Assembly (NCBI RefSeq): GCF_000004825.1
Contig: NW_008805078.1
Span: 772,069-836,068, forward strand
Length of the DNA stretch: 64,000 nucleotides
Reading direction: 5' to 3'
From: Heterostelium album PN500
Lineage: Eukaryota; Evosea; Eumycetozoa; Acytosteliales; Acytosteliaceae
The notes under the pieces were generated by a model. The model was not told the origin of the DNA, ran no database searches, and was given only the letters and a program-made list of their open reading frames with translations. Of this stretch, positions 33,318 through 50,369 are shown piece after piece. Position 1 is the first letter of the stretch, and every line of letters starts with the position of its first letter. A program made the position numbers and the translations under genes.

Positions 33318-36300
33318 ATGAGTTCATCAATTTCAAACTACAGGTTTATTGAAAAACCCTATTCCTTATACCAAAGTATGTTTAAACTCTGCAATACACA
33401 TTAAAAAACCACACAACACTGTGTGGATTTTTCAAAAACGGTACAAAGATCATTATTTTAATTTTATCTATCAAAAAAAAAAAAGATGCAATCCATATCA
33501 AAACAAACAAAAAGGTATTCATTCATATGTTTAGTATCGATGTGACAAAGTATGGCAATGATTTCCAAGGTAGACTTTCAAGTTTTGTTCGTGATCTCGA
33601 TCATCTCCATATCGTAAGGGTATACGAGATATTCGAGCATCAGCCAAATGTATTTATGGTTATCGAGTGTCGAAATGATTGGACAAGACTCTCGGATGCA
33701 TTGACCAGCGATTGGAAAGCTTTGCGAGAGAGTAGACCTCTGCCGATTTTCGAAGATCTTGTTCGTCGACTCTTCCAACAGTTGGTCTCCGCACTCGACT
33801 TTTTCCACTCACACATCGTGTTGAAACACGGTGATCTGGTAGTGGCGCCAATCGTCCAAGAGAAAGAACATCGTAAACTATCCGTTGAATCGCTACTCTA
33901 CGATGCCACTACACTCTCACTTGCAATCAACCCTGTTGATCTCTACATTAATACTGTCAGTATGCATCCATACGATTATGTATCTTCATGTGGAGAGATT
34001 CTCTATGAAATGGTATACCAAGAGAAATTCGATCCAAACACCAGTTTCCTATTGAAACCTCATTTAATTATTTCAAAAGAATGTGAAGATCTCATCTCAA
34101 GAATTCTTCAACCGACAACCAACCAAATTTTGACACTCGAAGATGTTCAGAAACATCCTTGGTTCAAAATTGGTTTACCAACCTACTTGTACCACAACAA
34201 TAATCATATCAAACCAGGCGAGGTATCAAAGATCGAACAATTAAAGAAGAAAGCACTCATCGACTTGATTGGTGAAAAGAAATTCCAAGAAAGTCAAACT
34301 GGTTTATTGAATCCAGTAAGTACATAGTTTATTAATTAGAAATACCTTAATTATAAGTTTATTAATTTTATTTATAGAATCTTAGATTGTTTGATGAATT
34401 GAGATCACTTGATTGCTTGAAATCTATTGATTATAAATCAGTTGTGAAGAGAATCAAGAATAACCAAAGTGAATCAGTTGATAATTTCGAATACCTTTTG
34501 AGAAATCTAGAGTCAGGCAAGACCGATATCAATTGGTATCATTTGTTACAGAGAGTTGGACTATCAAATATAAGAGTTGATCATCTCAAGAGGATCTGCG
34601 AGAGTGATCCATCAAAGAAGAGGGTGGTTCAATATATTCTGGTACAAATCATCAATGCTTTTGCTTTCTTGATCGATAGCAGCGAGGAGAACCAAAAGAA
34701 ATCATTGAATTTCACAAATTACTTCCTAACTATATTCGACCAACATGTAGACGTACCAACTCTTAAACATTCAATACAATCCAACTCAAACCCAAATAAG
34801 CCGAAGCTCAGTAAAGAAGAACCAGTCTTGAAATTAATTGGTGGAGCCAAGAGATTCGTTTATTCAGACTCCAAAGATGCAATGAATCAAATTGCCAATA
34901 ATGTTGTTGGTAATTTAGTAAAGTTTAGAACTGGTGGTGCTAGTCAGACTCCAATTCATATTGAGAGTAATAATAAGGTATGGAGTTTAACATATATTCT
35001 TTATTTTTTATTTTAAATTATTAACAATTGATTTTAGAATGCAATTTTATTGACAGAGGCAAAGATAAATCAATGTGGTGGTTTCTGGATGGAGAATCCA
35101 GTTTTACTTAAATCAGGATTCATTTGTAGTTTTACTTTCAAAATTGAAAAGGAAGCCGGAAAAGATTCTGGTGCAGATGGTTTTGCATTTGTAATTCAAC
35201 CAGAATCCAACACTGCTTACGACTCATTGAGTGTTGGTTCACAAAAGGGTTACGGTAGATTTAAGAATTGTTTTGCAGTCGAGTTTGACACTTGGCGTGA
35301 AAAACCGAATCATTTCATTTCATTACAATCCAGTTCGAAGAATAAAGACAATAGTTCAGGTATTCCAGATATATCACACTCTTTAACACCTCGTTTCATG
35401 ACAAACAAGATCCAGGTCAATTTAAATGATGGAAATGATCATCAAGTTATGATTATCTATTGGCGCGAATCACTCAGTGTCTTTGTCGGCGGCAAATCGG
35501 TATTCAAGTGCTTTGACCATGATATTCACAACGATTTGATTGGTTCGCTTGAAGCTGATAAATCCAAACCAGTATTCATTGGTGTGACTGGTGCAACTGG
35601 CGGATCTTATCAAAAACAATCGATTAAATCATTTACATTCAATACCTATCAGCCTGATCTCCATATTAAATCAACTGGTTCGATTTTAGATCTACTTGAT
35701 AAAGCCGAATCCAATAGTATCAGTTTTGTTGATACATTCCGTTGGATTAATTTCAAGTTGCTTGGTGATTCCACAGAGGTTCATAATGTGTTTGATCCAT
35801 ATGTAAAATTCTCTCGTGGTGCAATTTGGACAAAAGATCTTTATGATTTAAGAGATGGATTTGTTTCTCGATTCAAGATTGGTGTTAATGGTTCCGTCAA
35901 AGATAATCCATTTTCATTCGTTTTACAACCAACAAACTCTAAATTCATTCCAAATGAATCCCAAAGTTTTATCATTAAGTTTGCCAATGATACAATTTCA
36001 CTGTATGTCAACAGTCAATTAAACCAAGAGTCACATTATCCAGCATATTCATTCAAAACTCCTGGTGGTTTGCTCATCGATGATAACAAAGATCACGAAG
36101 TGGTTTTCAAATACTCTGGAATGTATATCACACTTCAAATTGATGGATTTACAGTTGTTGATCCATTGAAATTCAATATTCAAAAGATGCTGGCTTACAA
36201 TACCATTTATATTGGATTGACATCATTGGATAGTTTTGAAGGTGTTGTGATGCATGCAGTTGGAGTTGGCAAATCACATCAATTGAAATCATTCGTCAAT

Positions 36301-37332
36301 GAGAGATTCATGATTGACAATGAGGTTGCAAAGGAAATAGTCAGTTATGAACTTTTAAATATTATACGATATTCCAATATTCATAATATTCGAAGTCATT
36401 TCACTGGAAAACACTACCAAAATACCTACTTCAAGACAATTGAACATTTGGAAACTTGGATTGGTGACAATGTAGAAGAGCTCTATGTAATGGCACAATA
36501 TGGATATTTGTTTTCAGAGGAAACCAAATCACAGATCTTGGAAAAAGCATTGGAAATCCATACTGAAAGTAAATATCTTGAATTGGTTAAAATCATTCCA
36601 ATTGATTCCAAAGTTACTCTTAAGCTGTTCGACCAGGTTGTCAAAAATATCAGAGTGGTTTCTACAACAATCCTTGAGATTCTAACTCGATACATTGAGA
36701 CTTCTGAACGAGACAACTTCAACAAACTCTCTGTTTATTTCACCAAAATTGTATGGGATACATATTCACAAAAGGATTTATTCGATCAACCTCAGCTTTT
36801 CAATTCACTTTTGAAAACTACAAATGCAATTCTATCGACAAACTTAACTGGAATTCCAAATAATGTTGTCAAAATATTGTTTGATTCCATGAAACTATGT
36901 ATCGATAATCCATCAAGTAATAAGGACTACAGAGAATCGATCACTCAGTTGATAATGCAACTTCTTCATAAGCCGTCATTGGTTGAAATGTTCAAAACAT
37001 TCTTTAAATCAATGACATTCAATGAAGACAATATCAAATCAATCATTCTGGTATTCCCAAATACTCTTCCAAATGATAAAGAATCAATTCAACTCTTGGA
37101 TGAATATTCTAAATTGCTTTATCATTTTGTTGGTCTGGATAGTTTGAGACGTCCCATCAATTCCAACAACTTTGCAACATCACTGACATTGTTAAAGATT
37201 ATCAATCTTTATATTTGTTATGATTTCGATATTGATCAAACAATTATCAGCAAACCTCCAATCGAGTCACTACAGATTCTTTTACTTGCAATCACCAAAC
37301 ATTTCACTTATGATCCGAATGAAGAAAATTGA
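33318..37332 (+). CDS. Giant multidomain protein, N-terminal part: pseudokinase plus tandem lectin-like domains
   Basis: Exons 33318-33375, 33486-34315, 34378-34977 and 35038-37332, in frame at all junctions; it ends at a TGA (37330-37332) that looks like the product of a frameshift, because coding continues at once in the +1 frame. Residues about 10-240 form a CAMK-like protein kinase fold with degenerate catalysis. The VAIK lysine is not recognisable, the catalytic loop reads KHGD, and there is no DFG. C-lobe features remain (SSCGEILYEMV, LEDVQKHPWF). Residues about 500-716 form an L-type (legume-lectin-like) domain: GGFWMENPVLLKSGF, DGFAFVIQ, CFAVEFDTW, then VFIGVTGATGGS. A second related beta-sandwich spans about 718-916. 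An alpha-helical region follows. No signal peptide is seen, so the lectin domains face the cytosol unless export is unconventional. Symbol unknown. Confidence 0.85.
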
Positions 37333-40300
37333 TGGTGATAATGAAGAGTCTATCGATGGTCAATTGGAATTGGATCTCTTTAAATATTCTCAGATTTTGG
37401 AAGGTTTTCAATTAACAGAGGATCATCTTTGGTATTTAATTGATATTCAATTGACATTTAGATACACTCTCAAAGATTTCACTGAGATCCTCAGAATCCT
37501 GAGTGTTGAGTTGAAGTCAAAGATTGACCGACTAATTCAATTGGAAATTGTTGACACACCATTGGAATACATTCGAAAAATGTGGATCAAGTCATTAAAA
37601 CCATTTTCATCTTTAGAGGATTCAGTTCTAGACCAATTGAAAACATTTAATTACCAAACATTAGATTGGTTAATTAAATGTATCACCGATGAAGCAAAAT
37701 TACAAGAGTTTACCAAGTTCTTGGAGTTGTTAAGATATTATAAACTTGACCGGTTCGAGTCTGATAGTTTGATCATCAGTTCCATCAATGAAACCAACAA
37801 TATTAGACAATGGAAACAATCACTTGCAGAGTATATCATCAATGGTTATTATCTAAGTATTAGTTTCGAGGAACATTCTCATTCTCAATTATTCTTGGAG
37901 GTGAAAGAGAAGATGGCAGAATTACTCTTCATTGGTGATTGGTCACTCTCATCAATTGAACCTCTCATTCGAAAGACACTGGTTGATTCAAAGACTATAG
38001 ACCCAGATCTAATGAAATCTATGATTCGTATTTTACATACAATTATTGATTTCAAATTAAGTAAAGATGACTGCAACAACCGGTTCAATACAGTATCATC
38101 GTTCTTTAAATATCCAATCAACTACTTAGCAGATCGAATCGATGATTTGGTTGTCGATAAATATTTTGTGGAAAGTTATCACAAGAATATCATCCAATTG
38201 ATCAAAGAGATTAAAGCTCACAATCCATCATTGTCAATACCAAAATTAATGGATCAATATCATCAATGTAGAATCAAAATTCAAACTGGTAAAGCTGTTG
38301 AAAATCAATGTTTGGATCAATCATCTTATTCCAAGTTGACTCTTCAAGATCAAATTAGTATTTTAGTACTATCATGTCAAAGATCAATGAATATAACAAT
38401 CAGAGAAATTCAATTGTTATCATTGATTTTATTGATCGATAAACCACAATCAAGTGGAAGACTTCTCCAAATCAACACTGGAGAAGGTAAATCAATATTG
38501 ATTGCAATGTTGGCAGTTCATCAAGCACTTCTTGGTTTGCAAGTTGATGTTATAACAACCACTGAAGAACTGGCAAAACCTCAACAGCTATTGGCAGCTC
38601 CATTGTTCAAGTCACTTGGCTTATCACCACAATCTATAACATACTCAGGAATCTGTGATTTCCAAAGATCAGTTTTGGATGAACATTTCAAGAAAGGTGA
38701 AAGTAATTTTACCAAAGGTGTTGGAAGATTTGCAATTATTGATGAAGCAGATTCAATGATGTTGGAAGGAAATGATTCCATTGTGATGTTATCAGACGCC
38801 ACACCAGGAATAGACTCTCTCATGCCATTACTTGCTGCAACTTGGGCGCAGTTGGACCAGGTTGATAAAAGAATTGCATATTCAGATGAAGGTGAACTTT
38901 GTTATATTATTCCAGTGGAACATGACTCGAGTGGTAAAGTCCTACCCGAGGATAAACAAACCTATGAGTTCTATCCAATCAAAGATAAAGATCCAAAAGT
39001 TTTCATCAAAGAACTAATTGAAGAACACATTCGTAAATTAGTTAGAGATCAAACTGGTTTGGATAAAATGGATATCACTCCTGAAAGAAAAAAGATTGAT
39101 AAAGATTATCCTCAACTTATGATCCCAAATCATTTACAATCATTGGTGAAGGAGAGTCTCATCAGCAAATGGATTGACAGTGCATTGACAGCAATGTATA
39201 AAATGGATGTGAATAAGCATTATATTATCGAAGACAATATCGTCAAACCAGTGGATGCACACAATACTCTTTGCAAATCACTGGTTGGAACTCAATGGCG
39301 AAATGGACTTCTCCAATTCCTTCAATTCAAACATGGATGTAAGATCACTGCTGAGAATTTGACAACCAATTTCATTTCAAACATATCATTTATCAAACGA
39401 TATAACAACAACATGATTTGTCTTACTGGAACACTTGGAGGTACCAATGAAAAGAAGTTACTCGAAGACTTGTATAAAGTTGATATTCTTGTTATTCCGC
39501 CATTCAAAAACAAACAACTTATCGAACTCGAACCAGTCATTGTCCATGATAATGATGTCAATCGATGGTATAATTCAATTGTGTATCATACACATTCGAG
39601 ATTATTATCGAAAAGGGCAGTGTTGATTATCACAAAATACATTTGTGATGTCGATGAATTACATAAAAGATTGGTTGGAATCGTCAATCAAGATAAAATC
39701 AAACTCTTTAAATATGGAAATGAACCTTCAATTATTGATAGAAAGATTGAACCTGGTGATGTTATCATTTCAACAACTTTTGCAAGTAGAGCTCTTGACA
39801 TAAATGCCGATCAAATTGAAAAGTATGGTGGACTCCATGTATGTGTAACTTTCTTGCCTGAGAGTGAACGTGTCGAACTCCAAAGCTATGGAAGAACATC
39901 CAGAACTGGAAACAAAGGAACCTGTCAACTCATCGTTTTGGATCAAGAAGAACACAATACAATTGATCAACTCAAGTTGAATCGTTCAGAATCATATGAA
40001 CAAAAGTTGAAGAGTAGTAGAGTTACAATTCAACAAATTTCAAAGAGAGATGAAATCTTTTCGAAATTCTGTAAATTCAAAATTTCAATGTCAACGAGGT
40101 ATACGGCAGCCGGAGATCACATTGTTATCAGTGCTTTGGAAGAGAGATTTGCAATTTGGTTCAGAAAGTACGAAGATATGTCATTTGATTCCATTCCATA
40201 TCAGGATTTTGAGAACAGGTTAAGAGAGGAGTTATCAAAAGGAAAAGTCATTACCAATCCATTCTACTATGTGAAACTTGGAAATTATTTCTCTGATTTG

Positions 40301-43216
40301 GGAAAACATCAAGATTCATATAATCAGTTCAGTAAAGCAATTGAAATTGAAAAGAATTTTGTTGCCAATGCATATTACAACAGAGCTCATGTCATTCTTT
40401 CAATGGATAAAGATCGTTCTTGGGAATCGAATAAGAGTAAACCAAATCCAATCGATGACTTGACTAAAGCCAAGAAAATCATTGAAGATAATTTAGAACC
40501 AATGTGGATGTTGTTGGGACAAGCATCGGAATCACCTTTGATATCAAAACAAATCAGAAATATATTGTATCTCTTTGGAATGTTAAAAGGATCAATTGAA
40601 GATATGATTGGATATCACGATTATGATAGAGATCATGCTATTCTCAAGAAAGAACTTGAGAGAAAAGGAATCACTGATAAAGATAAAGAGGAAATCAACA
40701 AACAAATCAAAGAGTTGACTGAACGTCGTGATAGAAAAGGATTGATACAATCTGGTAACGAACACATCCAGAAAGTAGAGTTGATAAGCTTCAATTCGTT
40801 ACCACAAGGTGAGAATGCACAGGAGTTTAAAGATGAAACTACCCTTTTCAATACCGATGGATATATGGGATATACTCAGGTGATCAACAAACAACCAGAA
40901 AAGAAAATCCAATGGGGAAGTGTCATTGGATTGATTTTCATTGGTGTAGCACAGATTGTTGTTGGTGCTGTTATCACAGTTGTGACCGAAGGTATTGGCG
41001 CACCAGTTGGTGTGGCATTGATGGCTGAAGGTATTTCTGACATTATCACTGCTGTCCACGAAGGAATCATTGAAAGAACATTCACATGGAAGCAATGGGG
41101 AATTGAAAAAGCAATAAGTCTCACTGTTTCCGTAATCACCGCTGGAACTGGTTCGATTAAAGCTGTTGGAAAAGTCGCTTGGACAGCTGGAAAGAAAATA
41201 TTTACAATGGGAGCTGGTAAGGTATTGGCAAACGCTTCAAGGAAATTTGCTGTTCGAAATCTCTTTAAGTTTGGATTCAAAGGTGTGACCACGCGTATCC
41301 TCATCAAGAAGACAATGTACAGGGCAATGAGAGATCAAGTTATCGAATATGTACTTACACAAGGACTCAACTATATCTATGATCAGCTATTCGTTCCAGA
41401 GTTGATCAAGTTCATCAAAACACAAATTCGTCCGATCATCGAAACACACTTTGGAGGAAATAGTAAACTAAAAGGTTTACTCAAGTCTCATGTAGGATTG
41501 GTATCGAGTAGAATTAATTCATTGATTCATACAGATGAAGAAAATAGTGTATTCTATCGAATTTCAACTGGAATTGCAACTGGACTCATTCACAGCAAGA
41601 GTGTCAAATTATCAATACTCTTTGATATTCTCAGAGGATTGAAGGCAGTCAATGATATTCGAACAATGTTACCAGAATTCTTAAGCAAAGCAGACAAGGA
41701 AATCGATAAGATCGCAACTGAGAAGCCAGTTGATAATTTTGTTGATAATGCAGCCAACGCCATTATTGCACATCGTTTACAAGAGCTTGTAAATGATAGT
41801 GTGAATTCGATTGCTATGGAAATATCAAACCAAGTGAAATACTACATGGTCCATCCAGTTAGCAGAAGAATTTCATCTCATATTGTGACCAGAACTTTCA
41901 AAGGTGATAATGAACGACATCAAGCAGAACTGAATGCATACTATGCAGCTCACATTCAACATAAAATTGCAAATGGAAAGCTTCCACTCACTCCAATAGA
42001 ACACCTCAGCCCAACTCAATCAAAGCAATTCATTGACGAACAAATCAAGAATGTAAAGGGCAATGGTGAACTTGGAGTTGTTCACTTTGAAGCACTCAGT
42101 GGTCTTCTCCAACAACCAATCATTGTTCATGACAAGAATGGAGATGTAACAGTTTATGATAACTCTGGAAATGGAAAACCAAACAACGAACACACACCTC
42201 CAATTGAACTTCAATATATTCCACCCGACAAAAATAATAAATCAGGTCACTGGATTCCAAAGGGTGAAAGTCACGATTGGAAACTACCAGCCGACAAAGG
42301 AGGCGGTGGAAAGAATAACTGTTCACTCGATGCCATAATACATTGTAGAGAGAGATCTGGGCTCAGCAATGACCATAATCTAGCAGTTCTTCGTGACAAT
42401 TTGGTTAAATATTTGGACAGTGACAAAGGAAGGAAATCTCTAGCCAATCAAGCTTACTATGTAAAACAATTGGAGGCCACGAAAAAACAATGGTTGTATC
42501 AAGGTGGAGCTCGTGTCAAGCGTGGAAAGAAAAAGAGAGTTTTGAGAACAGCAACTAAATATAATCTATCTGGTAGGACAATGAAAGTGAATCTAAAGCG
42601 TTTGAGATGGAACGAGAGATACCATAGTACTGGAATGGGTGGACTTCACGAGTTGATTCCAATGAACATGAGAGCCAAGAATGGACTTTGTGAGAAAATC
42701 ATGAATCGTTGCGATACACCCGCCAAAGACCTCTTTATGAAATTCCTGATCGAAGGAAGACTCCACACAGGAGCTGTATTTTTCTTGGGTACAACAACCA
42801 ACAATTTGGTGGATGGTGCCATGCATTCCAGTAATATGAAATCAGTCCACAGCACTGAATCACAAGCTGACTTCCACGATATCTTGAGAAAACCTATAAT
42901 TGACCTCCACGATACAGTTGTGGTTAAAAAGAGAGTAGCTGATATCACACACGCAGAGATTCAACAAACCATTAAATCGGTGATTGATCTTCAACTTAAG
43001 AACACACTGAGTGGTGCCACCGGAAATCCAGCACAACATCTTCATCACTCTATGACAGCTGCACAACGTTTGCAACATAATTATTTTGTAGCAAAAGAAC
43101 GTGATTTCTTGAAGGGCATGGCCACCAGATATGGTATTGTACTAGATAACCCAACACCAATTATTGGACCATCACCTCCACCCAATACATTTGTAATGGA
43201 TTATACATTACCATAG
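37319..43216 (+). CDS. Giant multidomain protein, C-terminal part: SecA-like ATPase, TPR, glycine-zipper, OTU-like tail
   Basis: Continuous open frame; positions are counted from the ATG at 37319, though this is probably the downstream half of one protein of about 3,220 residues. Helical residues 1-370 precede a SecA-type DEAD motor: INTGEGKS (about 385, Walker A), IIDEADSMML (about 472, Walker B), LTGTLGG...DLYKVDILVIPP (about 700), GDVIISTTFASRALDI, GGLHVCVTF and GRTSRTGNKG (about 857). Order and spacing follow bacterial SecA more than ordinary helicases. A TPR-like hairpin (about 980-1035) and Gly/Ala-rich hydrophobic segments (about 1199-1250) follow. The last 400 residues contain an OTU-like core (ALSGLLQQPIIVHD...SGHW, then GGKNNCSLDAIIHC) and an unknown domain with GMGGLHELIP. 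SecA preprotein export is absent from the amoeba cytosol, so the motor must act on something else. If the two halves are separate, this ATG would be the start. Confidence 0.85.
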   Translation: MKKIDGDNEESIDGQLELDLFKYSQILEGFQLTEDHLWYLIDIQLTFRYTLKDFTEILRILSVELKSKIDRLIQLEIVDTPLEYIRKMWIKSLKPFSSLEDSVLDQLKTFNYQTLDWLIKCITDEAKLQEFTKFLELLRYYKLDRFESDSLIISSINETNNIRQWKQSLAEYIINGYYLSISFEEHSHSQLFLEVKEKMAELLFIGDWSLSSIEPLIRKTLVDSKTIDPDLMKSMIRILHTIIDFKLSKDDCNNRFNTVSSFFKYPINYLADRIDDLVVDKYFVESYHKNIIQLIKEIKAHNPSLSIPKLMDQYHQCRIKIQTGKAVENQCLDQSSYSKLTLQDQISILVLSCQRSMNITIREIQLLSLILLIDKPQSSGRLLQINTGEGKSILIAMLAVHQALLGLQVDVITTTEELAKPQQLLAAPLFKSLGLSPQSITYSGICDFQRSVLDEHFKKGESNFTKGVGRFAIIDEADSMMLEGNDSIVMLSDATPGIDSLMPLLAATWAQLDQVDKRIAYSDEGELCYIIPVEHDSSGKVLPEDKQTYEFYPIKDKDPKVFIKELIEEHIRKLVRDQTGLDKMDITPERKKIDKDYPQLMIPNHLQSLVKESLISKWIDSALTAMYKMDVNKHYIIEDNIVKPVDAHNTLCKSLVGTQWRNGLLQFLQFKHGCKITAENLTTNFISNISFIKRYNNNMICLTGTLGGTNEKKLLEDLYKVDILVIPPFKNKQLIELEPVIVHDNDVNRWYNSIVYHTHSRLLSKRAVLIITKYICDVDELHKRLVGIVNQDKIKLFKYGNEPSIIDRKIEPGDVIISTTFASRALDINADQIEKYGGLHVCVTFLPESERVELQSYGRTSRTGNKGTCQLIVLDQEEHNTIDQLKLNRSESYEQKLKSSRVTIQQISKRDEIFSKFCKFKISMSTRYTAAGDHIVISALEERFAIWFRKYEDMSFDSIPYQDFENRLREELSKGKVITNPFYYVKLGNYFSDLGKHQDSYNQFSKAIEIEKNFVANAYYNRAHVILSMDKDRSWESNKSKPNPIDDLTKAKKIIEDNLEPMWMLLGQASESPLISKQIRNILYLFGMLKGSIEDMIGYHDYDRDHAILKKELERKGITDKDKEEINKQIKELTERRDRKGLIQSGNEHIQKVELISFNSLPQGENAQEFKDETTLFNTDGYMGYTQVINKQPEKKIQWGSVIGLIFIGVAQIVVGAVITVVTEGIGAPVGVALMAEGISDIITAVHEGIIERTFTWKQWGIEKAISLTVSVITAGTGSIKAVGKVAWTAGKKIFTMGAGKVLANASRKFAVRNLFKFGFKGVTTRILIKKTMYRAMRDQVIEYVLTQGLNYIYDQLFVPELIKFIKTQIRPIIETHFGGNSKLKGLLKSHVGLVSSRINSLIHTDEENSVFYRISTGIATGLIHSKSVKLSILFDILRGLKAVNDIRTMLPEFLSKADKEIDKIATEKPVDNFVDNAANAIIAHRLQELVNDSVNSIAMEISNQVKYYMVHPVSRRISSHIVTRTFKGDNERHQAELNAYYAAHIQHKIANGKLPLTPIEHLSPTQSKQFIDEQIKNVKGNGELGVVHFEALSGLLQQPIIVHDKNGDVTVYDNSGNGKPNNEHTPPIELQYIPPDKNNKSGHWIPKGESHDWKLPADKGGGGKNNCSLDAIIHCRERSGLSNDHNLAVLRDNLVKYLDSDKGRKSLANQAYYVKQLEATKKQWLYQGGARVKRGKKKRVLRTATKYNLSGRTMKVNLKRLRWNERYHSTGMGGLHELIPMNMRAKNGLCEKIMNRCDTPAKDLFMKFLIEGRLHTGAVFFLGTTTNNLVDGAMHSSNMKSVHSTESQADFHDILRKPIIDLHDTVVVKKRVADITHAEIQQTIKSVIDLQLKNTLSGATGNPAQHLHHSMTAAQRLQHNYFVAKERDFLKGMATRYGIVLDNPTPIIGPSPPPNTFVMDYTLP

Positions 43217-43512: not shown

Positions 43513-44156
43513 CAGAATAACAAATCAATAATAGTCAAGAGTCTACGTATATCTTAATATTAGAAGTCGTCTGAAGGAAAGAAGATTAGGAAACTATTTA
43601 AAGAATGAATTTCATTACTTTTAATATCATTCAAAAAAAAGATATTTATCTAACTATAGTTATAAATAGATTTCTAAAAATAAAATATAAAATGAAGATT
43701 GCTTTGTTCTCTTTGTTATTGGTTGCTTTGACATGTTTGTCAGCAGTAAACTCAACATTTGTTGTTGGAACATGTGATTCCAGTAAATGTGGTGCCGGTC
43801 AAGTTTGTATCTGTGAAGGTGGTGTCAGTCACTGTGTCTTGTTGGATCAATGTCATGATGTTGCCATCGTTCAAAGCATTGAACGTAGTTGGGTTGAGAA
43901 TGGTCAATCATTCACATTGTACCGTGTCCACATCTTCAACTATGGTCCAAGAACCTTGAAGAACATCGCCATCCAAACCGATTGCACTTTGGATCCACGT
44001 GATCAAAGTTCAGTCTGGAACATCGAATATCACAATGGATTCTTCTCACTTCCATCATACGGTCAAGGTATTGCCACCGGTAAAGAGTTTGTCTTTGGTT
44101 ATATCGATCGTGGTATGCGTTCTCCAAATCTCTTCATCCGTGCCCTCCAATATTAA
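43513..44156 (+). repeat. Left arm of a 0.64-kb inverted repeat
   Basis: This arm includes the CBM49 gene and about 180 bp of its 5' flank. It is matched on the opposite strand by 50570-51212. The coding parts encode the same protein; flank differences are a few substitutions and small indels, mainly near 43566-43580. Similarity ends at the stop codon on one side and near AGAATAACAAATCAAT on the other. Confidence 0.92.
43692..44156 (+). CDS. Secreted CBM49 (cellulose-binding-type) protein, copy 1
   Basis: 154 residues. The first 20 residues (ATG at 43692) are a classical signal peptide: MKIALFSLLLVALTCLSAVNS. Then a small Cys-rich segment (CDSSKCGAGQVCICEGG) precedes a CBM49 domain of about 95 residues with the family pattern W..NGQSFTLYRVHIFNYG, LKNIAI, SSVWNIEY and F.LPSYG...FVFGYI. 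In dictyostelids such proteins bind cellulose of the stalk, spore coat or slime sheath. An upstream in-frame ATG at 43605 would bury the signal peptide and is rejected. The intergenic stretch before it (43217-43512) is AT-rich and without a gene. The protein is identical to that at 50570-51034. Confidence 0.92.
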   Translation: MKIALFSLLLVALTCLSAVNSTFVVGTCDSSKCGAGQVCICEGGVSHCVLLDQCHDVAIVQSIERSWVENGQSFTLYRVHIFNYGPRTLKNIAIQTDCTLDPRDQSSVWNIEYHNGFFSLPSYGQGIATGKEFVFGYIDRGMRSPNLFIRALQY

Positions 44157-44512: not shown

Positions 44513-47500
44513 ATGGGACAACAACTATCTAGAGAGATTTTGAAAGAGGAAATCGAAGGAAATCTAAAGCTTGCATTCCTCTCACAACACCAAGAGAATC
44601 AAGAATTCGATAATAATAACAATAATCTTGCTACTTGTTGTGTAAGTAATATTAACTTTTACAAAGATCATAAAAAAGTGATGAATTCTTTGATTCTAAT
44701 GATATTGCTAATATAGTGTCAAAGAGGTTTAGTTGATAGATACTTTTATTATTTATCAAAGAAGAAAGAGAATAACTATATAGAACAATTGATACAATCG
44801 TTTGACAAATCAGTACTATTAAGAAAGACGCTAGATGCTGAATTAGAGGAACAACTACAAAAGAAAGAGGCATTACATTCATCAAGAGAACAATTACCAT
44901 CTTTATCAAATAGTAATAATAATAATAACAATAACAATAGCAGTAATAGTAATAGTAGTAGCAATAGTAATAATGATGATCAACCATCGATATTAAATCG
45001 TATAGAATATCAACCATATTCATTGCAATCAGCACAGCTTGAAGGTGATGAAATATTCATTCATATCATTGAGAAATGCTATAATGAAATGAAATTGTAA
45101 GTAAATAATACTCGATATCGAGTCTATTTAGCTCACTATCATCTAACACTTGCCACCATTAACACTCATTATCATTTATAGTGAACCAACATTGTTTGAA
45201 AGAGTATATGTTCCACAATCAATGAATAATCAATATAAATTACAACCGAATGAAATACTTACCAGTTGGGAATACTTTGATGAGATAAACTCTACTCCGA
45301 TCTTCTATCAAATCAACCCATTGTACAATATGATAAACTCTGATAACTATATAGTGCAAGAGAAGACACTAACCAAACTGAATCAATCAAACTTTGAACA
45401 AGCAACAAAAGTATGTTATATATAACTATCATCATCATCATCATATCATCGTCATTTAATGTTAGTTCAATTTACTTATTTACAATTTAATTTGTTTAGG
45501 AATATTTATTGAATATATTACAATTGTTTTCAACGTATATAAGTCCATTACCAAACTCAATACATTTCAATGATAGTAGTATTCCATCTTCTATCGATTA
45601 TAGTGCACCGAACCTGCTGAAGTTACATCCTAATCTCCTGCCGATACTAGAGATCATCGAAAGCGACAAGTACTTCTTTATGGTGCATCAAAAGTATCAT
45701 TACTCACTGGATAATCTGCTGCGTTATAGCAACCAGTTCTTGTTGAAGAACAGCAAGATCACAGCTTTTATACTATACCAATTGATTCAGCTCGTTAGTT
45801 TCCTTCATGACAAGGAGATTGTACACGGTGACTTGTCACCCGCTTCGATTGCACTCGACAACAACATGTGGCTCGGTCTGCACGGCTTCAAATTCCCTTC
45901 GGCGCCGCTCTACTACGAGCCTGCACCAGACTCGGCTGTCACTCTCTGGGTGCAAGGCAGCATGTCCAACTACAACTATCTGCTGCTGTTGAATCATCTG
46001 GCGCATCGGCGTCACGGCGACCACATGAAACACCCGGTACTTCCTTGGATCATCGACTTTACTCGTCATCCATTCCAGTCGCCGCCAAGCTGGCGTGACT
46101 TGACCAAGACCAAATATCGTCTCAACAAAGGTGATGAACAATTGGATTTCCAATTCCAGAATGCACATAATTCACCTCACCACATCTCTGACATCCTCTC
46201 GGAACTGACCTACTACAGCTACTTGGCAAGACGCACCTCTGTCCCAATACTGAGAAGATTCGTTCGTTCCAACTACGAACCAAATGAGTATCCCTCGACG
46301 ATGGAGAGACTCTATCGTTGGACTCCCGACGAATGTATCCCGGAATTCTTTACCGATCCAACCATTTTCAAGTCGATTCACAGCGATATGCCCGATCTCG
46401 CAATACCCGAGTGGGCGTCGACACCCGAGGAGTTCATCGCCATCCACATGTCGGCACTCGAATCGGAACCGGTCTCTAAACAGCTACACAACTGGATTGA
46501 CTTGACATTTGGTTATCTGCTAAGTGGCGAAGCTGCAATCGCCGCAAAGAACGTCGCACTCGTCGATACCTCGGTACCGCGCACCAGTGGAATCGTACAG
46601 CTGTTTGCCAAGCCACATCCACCCAAGAAGACATCGACCTCCACCAACTCGGATCTATTCAAACAACTCTCGAACGAGCCAATTATCAGATTCAACGAAC
46701 AGCAATCTTCGTATTTGAATCAATCGTTTGGTGACAGCTCTATGAATCCACTTCAGAACAGCAGTAGTGCAGGCAACGTTTCAATAATCTCATCGATAAC
46801 AGCTTCGGTTGGACCGATTTCTCTTGGACCATCGTCAACAATCACCAACTCCAACCAACTATCACAATCTGCATTCATTCAACCACAGACATCAAACGCT
46901 AACAACCGTTCATCCACAGCCATCGCCGCCAACAACAATCCCATTTCCAACTCCACCTCTTCCATGTCCAACAATCAATCCACCACCACCTATTCAAAAC
47001 CTACAACCAAGAAAGAAGATAGTGCTAAAACATTTGCTAAATTCTTACCATCACTATTTAATAATAACAACAATAATAATAATAATAATAATAACAATAA
47101 CACTAACAATAGCAATAATAATAATAGTAATGATCCAACTGCTGGTGGATCACCAGATTCAACACAACTTTATAATTATAATCAAAAACCGATGGTACAT
47201 TCTAAATCTGAGGAAACTATCAATAAGAGATACTCTGGTATTGTTACTTCAAGACAGAATTCTGGATCACCAATGAAAGAGTTGATGGTTAATTCCGATA
47301 GTGCAATCAGCACTGTTACTACTCCACCATCACCCTCAACATTCAATCGTGGTTCTTCAGACATTGATATCACACCACCCAGTCCGATCTCACCGGATCT
47401 TCCAATAACACACATCATAGAACCGCTACCAGCAGATCTTGATTTCGATCTCTATGATTATGAAAGACTTTCAAATCAAGGCATTTGGGAATCGTCTGGC

Positions 47501-50369
47501 ACACTCGGTACCAATAGCAACAATAGTGCAGTGGCACCTGATATCTTCCTACAGGATCTACAGATCTGTGAGAATAGCTTGTCTTTTAACCAGTCGTTTG
47601 CCAATTTGACACCGATCTACCGTCCATTGGAATTCGATCGATCGCAACAACAGCTACCTGGATTCCTCGCGTATCTCACCCACAAGAAAATGACACCCCT
47701 CGAAGTCATGAAGTCCAACGATATGTATGCCATTGGTTGTATCATTGCAGAGCTCTATCAAGGTGCACCACTCTTCACATCTTCAAGCATAGCCAGTCAC
47801 TTCCAGCCAAAGTCCAACTCAACCGCAACACCATCGGGCATGTCGCACCACAGTAAATTCAACCCTCACCGACACCCATTCCAACAACATCAATCGGTTA
47901 CATCGAATCTACCCACCCCGATCAGAGAACTAGTTGATCAGTTAGTTCAGCCAAATCCCGAGGATCGTGCAACTCCAAAACAGCTGCTGGCATCACCTAT
48001 ATTTCCATCTTACTTTAAACAGATGTATCATTTCCTTTGCCACTACCATTCTCTACACACCTACGAGGAGAAGCTAACCTTCACATTGGCAAACATTGGT
48101 ATAGTAACATCATTGCCAAACGAAGCAATGGATTTGGTACTGCCGTTTATCCTTGAGCTGTTCAACCATTCAACAACCAAAGTCAGTGCACTGATCGATC
48201 TTCTCGATCCGCTATCTCAGCGGCTTGGACCACTGCTCTCACAAACCTATTTGTTACCCTGTGTTATCAACCTCTATCAGTTGCATGACGATCATCTCCT
48301 TCAGTGTCATCTCATTCAGATTCCTCTGATCGACATGATCATCTCTAGATTTGGACGTGATATCTACATACACCACATCCTACCGTTCCTTCTGGATAGT
48401 GTAAAGACTAATCCACGTGACAATCCCAACCATGAAATGCTTATCACAGCACTCATCAACATCTCCAAGGTTTTGGGTATCCCACTCACCATACGTCACA
48501 TCATGTACCCACTGTTGGTTGCTCTTACCAAACCACATTTACAACATATTAGTGAAGCATTGATTGCAATCGCTTCGTTCTTGGGTGAACCGATCATTGT
48601 TAAATTCTATTTCCCAGCAATCTTTATATTGATTCAGAAGCATTCGTCCAAAGCAACAAGATCGGAATCCATTCCATGTACATTACTATCACTCCTACAA
48701 GAGCTAATCCTGCTGGTTAGACCTGGATTGGTATTAAGATCACTATTGAAAGAATCAACTCAATTGGCCAGTCTATTATTGAACCCACCAAATCCATCAC
48801 TCCTCATTCCACTCTCGGAAACAATCCTTCGAATTGCACGTAGAATTGGTGTAAACAATACAAAACAATTTGTAAGTTATTAGATATATTACAATTTACA
48901 ATAGTATCATTCTAACAATGTTTATTCAATTCACTTTTTTTTTTTTTAATAGATATTAAAATATTTGCAACAATTTTATTCAAACTACTCTGATCTTTAT
49001 ACTTTTAAAGATAATGGATTGATTTCGAATGATACCAACAAGCAGTTGCGTGCAATCTACTCACCAGAGATGACCTATCATCTCTACTTTAGAATGTCAA
49101 GAGTAATTGGTTATGATATTCTTAGAGCAGAGATCAGTGAAAATGCTCTGATTGAGCACATCATGTTGCAGTACATCAGAGAGAACAATGTAAAGCCTGA
49201 GCCACAGACTACCTCTATCATTCCACCCTATGTATCAGATGATGGTTTATTCGATGAAATCGAACCGTCAATCGATGAAAAGATCTGTACAACCTATATA
49301 TTGGATGACTACCAGGACTATGATGATTTAATCACCGACCAAACCTTCTCACTTGAGGGTAACGTTGTAGCATTCTACAGAGAGCACACAGCAGCCATCA
49401 AATCGATTGCTGTCTCACCTTCAGAATCGATATTTGCTACAGGTAGCAAAGACAATCTCGTCAAAATCTGGTCACTCGATAGCACTAAATCTCTGACTAC
49501 CTACAACCAACATCCGCACACAACTCATACCGTTCATTTCGTATCTTCGTTGGTTGCATCGTGCGACTCGACATCCATTCACATCTGGGATCCCGAAAGT
49601 AAGGTGAAAGTACATGTTTTCGTTGAACCGACAGGTAATTTCTCATGCTTTGAACCCATTACCAACAAGTATTTGGTTGCATCTTCTGGCGACTCAAACC
49701 TTAGCTTCCTCGATTTGAATCTTGGTTTAGAGACACACTCTTGGAATCTCCCATTCCAAGGAGGCAGTTCAATACGTTGTATTACTACTTCAAACGATCA
49801 CTTCATACCAAGCAACTCCAACTCGCTCATGTCGAATCCACCCATTTCATTCCCAAGTTGGATTGCTGCAGGTTCATCCTCTGGCGTCATCAGTATCCTT
49901 GACACAAGAACTGGTTCAATTATAGACACTTGGAAAACAGATGGACCAATTATCAAAGTAAGATTATTTTTATTCATCTTGAATCCTTTAATAATCTTAA
50001 TTTAACATTCTTATTCTATTATAGTTAATTGGTCAGGATTCAAGATATTTAATTTCTACTTCTGAGAAATCAGTTATTCAATGGGATTTAACAACCTCAC
50101 CACCTTCAATCGCAAAGATATGGAAAGGTTTCAGAGATTCTATATCATCATTGACTCTTTGGCAAAATGATATTATCACTGCCTATGGAAGCAAGCTTTC
50201 ATCAATGTCATTACTTGACGACCTACATGGAATATCTGGATCCTACAGAACTGAAGGAATCAAATTGAACACACTCAAACAATCGAATATATCTTCAACA
50301 GCCTTCCTTCCACTTCATCATTTACTTCTCTGTGGTACTGAAGATGGTCAAACAAAGATTGTACATTAA
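44513..50369 (+). CDS. lvsG: LvsG/WDR81-like protein: BEACH domain inside a pseudokinase, plus HEAT-like and WD40 repeats
   Basis: Six exons (44513-44641, 44717-45096, 45182-45410, 45500-48871, 48953-49957, 50025-50369), 1,819 residues, all in frame. The N-terminus MGQQLSRE has Gly2 and Ser6 and fits an N-myristoylation signal. Residues about 287-377 carry kinase subdomains with the degenerate loop VHGDLSPASI. The BEACH domain follows (about 393-600: SNYNYLLLLNHLAHRR, PWIIDF, ELTYYSYLARR, FFTDP). A long polyN/Ser/Thr linker comes next, then kinase C-lobe sequence (NDMYAIGCIIAELYQG, QPNPEDRATPKQLLASP), a HEAT-like helical region, and WD40 repeats from about 1506 (HTAAIKSIAVSP..IFATGSKDNLVKIWSL). 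This is the LvsG/WDR81 architecture; WDR81 controls endosomal PI3P and aggrephagy. Catalytic activity is unlikely. Confidence 0.88.

Follow-up and report, generated by a model that had tools for sequence, protein, structure and literature searches.

A dictyostelid gene joining a degenerate kinase and lectin-like domains to a SecA-to-glycine-zipper chassis common to giant bacterial proteins

How does an amoeba gene come to line up a degenerate kinase, lectin-like domains, a SecA-type motor, a glycine zipper and a tail with cysteine and histidine motifs? The question is raised by a gene spanning positions 33318-43216 on the forward strand of the 64,000-nucleotide stretch of DNA analysed here (the window), part of a genome (G000) of 32.9 Mb in 39 contigs. 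A preliminary description, made from the letters alone, had listed these domains, and their order proved largely correctly read. We found that the gene has a second copy with the same domain plan 0.3 Mb away on the same contig (L018, about C17:1117735-1127561), and that both copies bear the marks of past constraint. Moreover, sequence comparisons place the stretch from the SecA motor to the glycine zipper, here called the chassis, in giant toxin- or effector-like proteins of bacteria; several of these come from bacteria that live inside cells.

The motor half and its giant bacterial relatives

The SecA-type ATPase of the preliminary description was confirmed. SecA_DEAD was matched in the window gene above the Pfam cut-off, with an expect value (E) of 1.1e-20, and in the last exon of the paralog with an E of 9.1e-20, accompanied in the window by weaker matches to the SecA P-loop domain (4.5e-5) and cross-linking domain (0.0022). 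All 24 PDB sequences matched by the second reading frame at E <= 0.01 are SecA. Walker A, DEAD/DEVD, TGT ('CGT' in the paralog) and motif VI are kept. We conclude from the profile matches that the SecA part is a motor half and not a SecA translocase, since the best alignments to the NCBIfam SecA models stop at model positions 471-570 out of 762-814 (742-743 out of 1118 for one model) and score 70-112 bits against cut-offs of 725-1493. The gene resembles the SecA preprotein translocase in its nucleotide-binding and cross-linking domains and in most motor motifs, but differs from it in an altered motif V and in having no match to the C-terminal part of the SecA models, and the helical scaffold, wing and two-helix finger of a full-length translocase were not found. 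A SecYEG partner would not be expected in the cytosol.

Of 72,556 plasmid records searched with the SecA part by tblastn, 30 were matched. In the 20 of these 30 that were listed, the strongest matches are to Candidatus (Ca.) Megaera (3e-75), Ca. Bandiella (2e-53) and Legionella geestiana (2e-47), and all others stood at 2e-16 or weaker. These three plasmid proteins are giants of 5225, 2966 and 2947 residues, respectively; for the Megaera protein, a comparison within a small set showed similarity to the second frame across the zipper as well (1.3e-10). Directly after its gene lies a second SecA-like gene (L039, 16046-17551 and beyond), which matches positions 2-678 of the 1055 of a chassis profile. 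Viral contigs (IMG/VR) hold 11 loci encoding a relative, and for the IMG/VR proteins L122 and L123 the match covers residues 3-955 of the query and extends from SecA into the zipper. Three phage records matched at 6e-11 to 1e-8 and were set aside, being no such giants as far as shown. A pattern scan of genome contigs gave at least 457 of 592 stretches encoding a relative, probably ordinary SecA for the most part, and 80 stretches were kept. A search of genome contigs for close relatives of the SecA part confirmed none.

A profile built from the window gene and its paralog from the zipper onward, excluding the SecA part, matched 4 of 143 genomes (4 places) in the order of an uncultured Legionella metagenome-assembled genome (MAG) and 4 of 232 genomes (7 places) in the phylum of a Protochlamydia MAG, so that most genomes of both groups are without a detectable match. 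The Legionella MAG itself (G001) and G002 were not matched by this two-copy profile, but the zipper of G001 is recovered with a profile of five rows. All 11 matches sit in open reading frames (ORFs) of 1329-5178 codons. SecA sequence lies upstream in nine of the 11, one of which, L153, holds the SecA end only, because its contig ends there; none was found in L151 or in L157, a contig fragment.

SecA followed by the zipper was found, in a small-set comparison, in 13 proteins besides the amoeba pair, namely those of Megaera and L. geestiana, L122, L123 and nine more, one of the 13 having only the SecA end. L042 shows the same succession in a separate profile search. In Bandiella, SecA and the TPR-like segment are matched and the zipper is not, a hydrophobic stretch alone standing in a comparable place; the zipper stretch of the window gene is likewise hydrophobic. 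With the TPR-like segment of the paralog as query, eight proteins of the small set were matched at E < 0.001 (Megaera, Bandiella, L. geestiana, L149, L152, L153, L156 and L158), between SecA and zipper or, in Bandiella, after SecA. The region preceding the motor found no bacterial match better than E 0.94, and scans of the N-termini of ten giants revealed no kinase or L-type lectin at E 0.1 (E 0.01 for part of them).

The C-termini of these giants vary. Across residues 1-3410, L122 and L123 share 92.6% identity, which drops to 0.41 and then 0.22 in the two final bins, L122 ending in a WHH nuclease (2e-15); this pair displays the constant trunk and exchanged tips of polymorphic toxins, and the tips differ elsewhere. 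Four of nine giant tails scanned had matches at E <= 0.01 and five had none. The families were ART-like (4.1e-5, with a second ART match at 2.2e-4), Lipase_3 (0.0013), OTU (0.0018) and DUF6674 (3.8e-4); of these, the second ART match is the only one at or above its cut-off. The Megaera protein matched RickCE_cat below cut-off (1.3e-4). By eye, the C-termini of L156 and L158 (both genome G235) look OTU-like with the usual Cys-before-His order, and Pfam OTU did not match them at E 0.01. The two amoeba tails are alike, with no tip exchange seen between them.

Polymorphic toxins have been described as large multidomain proteins with repeats, a constant trunk and a changing C-terminus, including OTU, lipase-like and nuclease ends, and Amoebophilus effectors are listed as having a diverse set of C-terminal domains that includes SecA-like helicase-related ones (Zhang et al. 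2012, PMC3482391, in the portion available). Judged against that portion, the giants share with polymorphic toxins and with the host-directed giant effectors of amoeba endosymbionts a constant trunk and a changing C-terminus. However, the SecA part is here an internal trunk common to many giants rather than an end as in Amoebophilus and, unlike a polymorphic toxin, the window gene is eukaryotic and carries pseudokinase, lectin and LamG modules in the same fusion. Similarly, as far as the available part of its account goes (PMC5062602), the phage WO eukaryotic association module places a SecA domain in genes of an endosymbiont mobile element, a likeness drawn by description; that part, in contrast to the window gene, describes no lectin or kinase fusion. 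Titles and abstracts listed in a search of mostly open-access papers yielded no description of the present architecture or of a family of bacterial giants built on a SecA trunk with exchangeable ends.

We built a tree of 29 SecA rows, sampled from bacterial and IMG/VR sequences and from this amoeba genome and rooted at the midpoint. Five blast-matched rows were left out for short coverage (L045, L047, L048, L103 and C12a), as were rows that had no match at 1e-8 (C12b, L063 and L117 among them), the fragments L151, L153 and L157, and two partial ORFs. The amoeba pair and fourteen giants split with 100/100 support from the other 13 rows, which comprise ordinary SecA, the SecA-like L043 and L046, and an amoeba gene on contig C5. 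The latter, an ankyrin-SecA gene (L022, C5:1219791-1224464) with a stronger SecA match than that of the window (4.5e-52), pairs with a Protochlamydia SecA-like protein (86/52). Altogether seven SecA_DEAD matches fall in six loci of the genome, and of these loci only the window gene and its paralog match the tail query at E <= 0.1. Three of the loci are clustered at C12:923756-959040 (L013-L017), one of them interrupted in frame by stops or introns, and do not match that query.

The locus, its paralog and the frame break

The window locus is real and dictyostelid. Its genome gave 12 matches to Dictyostelium class I RNA, 11 above the cut-off, against 0 of 14 control genomes, for which reason we take it as dictyostelid; an Rfam scan of the window itself gave no match. 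Bacterial contamination was rejected on the grounds of the introns, the 1.3-Mb contig, the second copy on it and these class I RNAs.

The gene is not one open frame: it has three introns (33376-33485, 34316-34377 and 34978-35037) and a frame break (Table 1). At the first joint the paralog has an identical donor followed by the same residues (NAIHIK); the alternative 33380/33534 also leaves the frame open and is less canonical. The four exons join into one frame of 1260 residues, and a second frame is open over 37196-43216 (2006 codons) with no further break. Two introns of fitting phase might have bridged the frames, 37266-37461 and the 34-base 37217-37250 (by eye), and both were rejected because splicing them out would delete or alter residues that the paralog shares.

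The paralog has no frame break, and its last exon is unbroken over 2714 codons. It is 46% identical to the first frame (356/768) and 58% to the second (1146/1970). Between the copies, differences are fewest at codon position 2 and most numerous at position 3 in 10/10 segments (0.36, 0.27 and 0.61 at positions 1, 2 and 3 of the last domain), which shows past constraint on all ten.

Downstream, a small ORF at 43605-44156 has a signal-peptide-like start and a Cys-rich stretch by eye, and possibly encodes a secreted carbohydrate-binding protein.

Table 1. Positions of the features of the gene within the window
Feature	Position	Strand	Basis
Exon 1, coding start	33318..33375	+	Donor GTATGT at 33376 and acceptor 33485 keep the frame
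Exon 2, degenerate kinase domain (VAIK replaced by VFIHM, HRD by HGD; no DFG)	33486..34315	+	Pfam Pkinase
Exon 3, linker without assigned fold	34378..34977	+	Best Pfam match no better than E 0.14
Exon 4, first frame	35038..37332	+	Runs to stop at 37330-37332
L-type (legume-type) lectin domain	35128..35628	+	Pfam E 9.6e-14; PDB lectin 7elv E 3.5e-7
Second beta-sandwich, laminin-G-like	35956..36216	+	Pfam E 2.6e-4; paralog 1.5e-6
Frame break in linker, not mended; assembly error or recent mutation possible	37309..37351	+	Ends of both paralog alignments; codon-usage switch nearby
Region before motor, second frame, likely helical (by eye)	37352..38335	+	61% identical to paralog
SecA-type motor half	38336..39961	+	TGEGKS, DEAD, TGT and GRTSR motifs kept; alignment and tree
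TPR-like region	40067..40885	+	Pfam TPR E 0.1, weak alone; paralog segment matches bacterial giants
Glycine-zipper hydrophobic stretch and following part	40895..41461	+	Profile matches; hydrophobicity
Permuted OTU-like region, His 42248-42250 before Cys 42320-42322	41939..42493	+	Six-row alignment; Pfam OTU weak
C-terminal domain without assigned fold, matched only in paralog	42494..43213	+	Paralog comparison

Front end and tail of the protein

The front end agrees with the pseudokinase and the lectin fold followed by a second beta-sandwich that had been described. Pkinase was matched at E 1.1e-11 (query starting at base 33527) in a domain 59% identical in the paralog, and none of the hallmarks of an active protein kinase is present, the VAIK lysine being replaced by H, HRD by HGD, and DFG being absent. 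Weak similarity to this exon occurs on another contig (G000 C22:220448-221236, E 9e-6 and 9e-4). A neighbouring ORF at 45680-48883 also has a kinase-like stretch and by eye may resemble BEACH-associated inactive kinases such as lvsG.

A legume-lectin fold is supported by the profile match, below the Pfam cut-off of 78.3 bits in both the window (52.2) and the paralog (74.4, E 1.5e-20), and sugar binding is predicted. Four other loci of the same genome match this domain at 32-36% identity (G000 C6:402109-408655, C3:1078606, C17:758720). Laminin_G_2 falls just below its cut-off in the window (21.9 bits) and above it in the paralog. A cytosolic glycan sensor with an ATP-driven effector, as previously suggested, is compatible with this layout, and inspection by eye showed no signal peptide.

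Support for reading the tail as OTU-like is weak. The cysteine and histidine noted earlier are present, but the histidine comes before the cysteine and the Pfam OTU match stays below cut-off. Aligned with four bacterial tails, the region keeps Gly-His, Cys and Leu-Arg in 6/6 rows, an invariance due in part to choice since the rows were picked by eye after the motifs had been seen. Pfam OTU matched four of the six members (best 9.8e-5); for the window, E ranged from 0.0096 (16.9 bits, cut-off 23.3) to 0.12 with the stretch submitted. Submitted alone, the His halves matched OTU positions 48-117 in the window (0.065) and 53-102 in the paralog (0.02), the Cys half of L157 matched positions 5-38 (0.05), and the other seven halves gave no OTU match. 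The tail had no meaningful match among PDB profiles (OTUD1 at E 1.4) and none in plasmids, phages or viral contigs at the limits used. An HNH-type nuclease reading of the last domain, considered by eye only, was dropped.

In the bacterial OTU deubiquitinase EschOTU the His likewise precedes the Cys, and the available part of its report calls it the only case of this arrangement (PMC7396840). Measured against that part, the window tail is similar by description in its order and weak OTU profile match, and unlike it in having Ile instead of Asn two residues after the His.

Origin, possible action and competing readings

We propose that a giant toxin- or effector-like gene (SecA motor, TPR-like region, glycine-zipper hairpin, exchangeable C-terminus) was acquired by a dictyostelid ancestor from a bacterium of the Rickettsiales, Legionella or Chlamydiota sphere, joined to pseudokinase, L-type lectin and LamG modules, and then duplicated. 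Capture by the amoeba is suggested because, apart from the amoeba pair, our searches located the chassis in toxin-like giants of bacteria. In the cytosol, the lectin and LamG arms would bind glycans exposed on bacteria or torn vacuoles, and binding would free the motor from a pseudokinase/helical clamp. ATP-driven movement might then insert the glycine-zipper hairpin into the marked membrane and place the tail, perhaps a permuted OTU-type cysteine protease plus the unassigned domain, at or across it. We consider this sequence of capture, fusion and duplication with a defensive action to stand at about even chances. The sharper claim, that an endosymbiont's delivery chassis was turned into an anti-bacterial weapon, a lectin-guided, ATP-driven membrane inserter that brings a protease tail from the cytosol to intracellular bacteria or damaged vacuoles, is rather unlikely.

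Several observations weigh against our proposal. The window copy carries the frame break, both copies depart from AGRGTD in motif V (the window gene reading ASRALD and the paralog ASRAID), and the TPR-like segment was unmatched in L148, L150, L154, L155, L122 and L123 (E < 0.001, small set). The fork nesting the amoeba pair among nine giants (92/90) is not starred, and 8% of bootstrap trees group the giants alone on one side; given that fork and the midpoint root, sisterhood or reverse transfer would fit as well. As to the tail, the Cys half of the bacterial L154 best matched DUF7863 (0.003) and not OTU, hhalign of the amoeba pair against the four bacterial rows was not significant (P 0.34, probability 0.2%), and a shuffle test of the window tail against the Megaera OTU-like region gave a null result, 456 and 942 of 1000 shuffles doing equally well. 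Two residues after the His, both amoeba copies have Ile and the four bacterial rows have A, A, Q and C, not the acidic residue or Asn of OTU proteases.

The unstarred fork would also suit an older eukaryotic family that donated the chassis to intracellular bacteria. We judge this very unlikely, as the giants span Rickettsiales and Legionella- and Chlamydiota-related genomes and hold most of the sampled diversity, the sampling being bacterial, and the other placeable SecA gene of this genome, on C5, falls with ordinary SecA and SecA-like rows. A captured chassis might otherwise serve a housekeeping task, such as ubiquitin editing or vesicle remodelling via lectin-tagged membranes. Past constraint in all ten segments and the lectin relatives elsewhere in the genome fit such a task, for which the link to bacteria would be ancestry alone. 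The variable, partly toxin-like tips of the chassis proteins and the glycan-binding front would suit conflict better, which is an argument and not a test, and we see a housekeeping role as possible but doubtful.

The frame break, for which no acceptable intron was found, together with the unbroken paralog would be expected if the window copy were a dying pseudogene and only the paralog worked. Nevertheless, the second frame runs through 2006 codons without further break and the codon-position differences are those of constraint, for which reasons pseudogenization would be recent or the break an assembly error; a dying copy is conceivable, on the doubtful side.

If our proposal of capture and fusion is true, the gene would illustrate how the giant effector of a parasite is taken over by its host and redirected through the host's own recognition domains. 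The findings also point to a family of bacterial giants that share a SecA trunk and have exchangeable ends, and the amoeba offers an organism in which the role of this chassis can be probed by gene removal.
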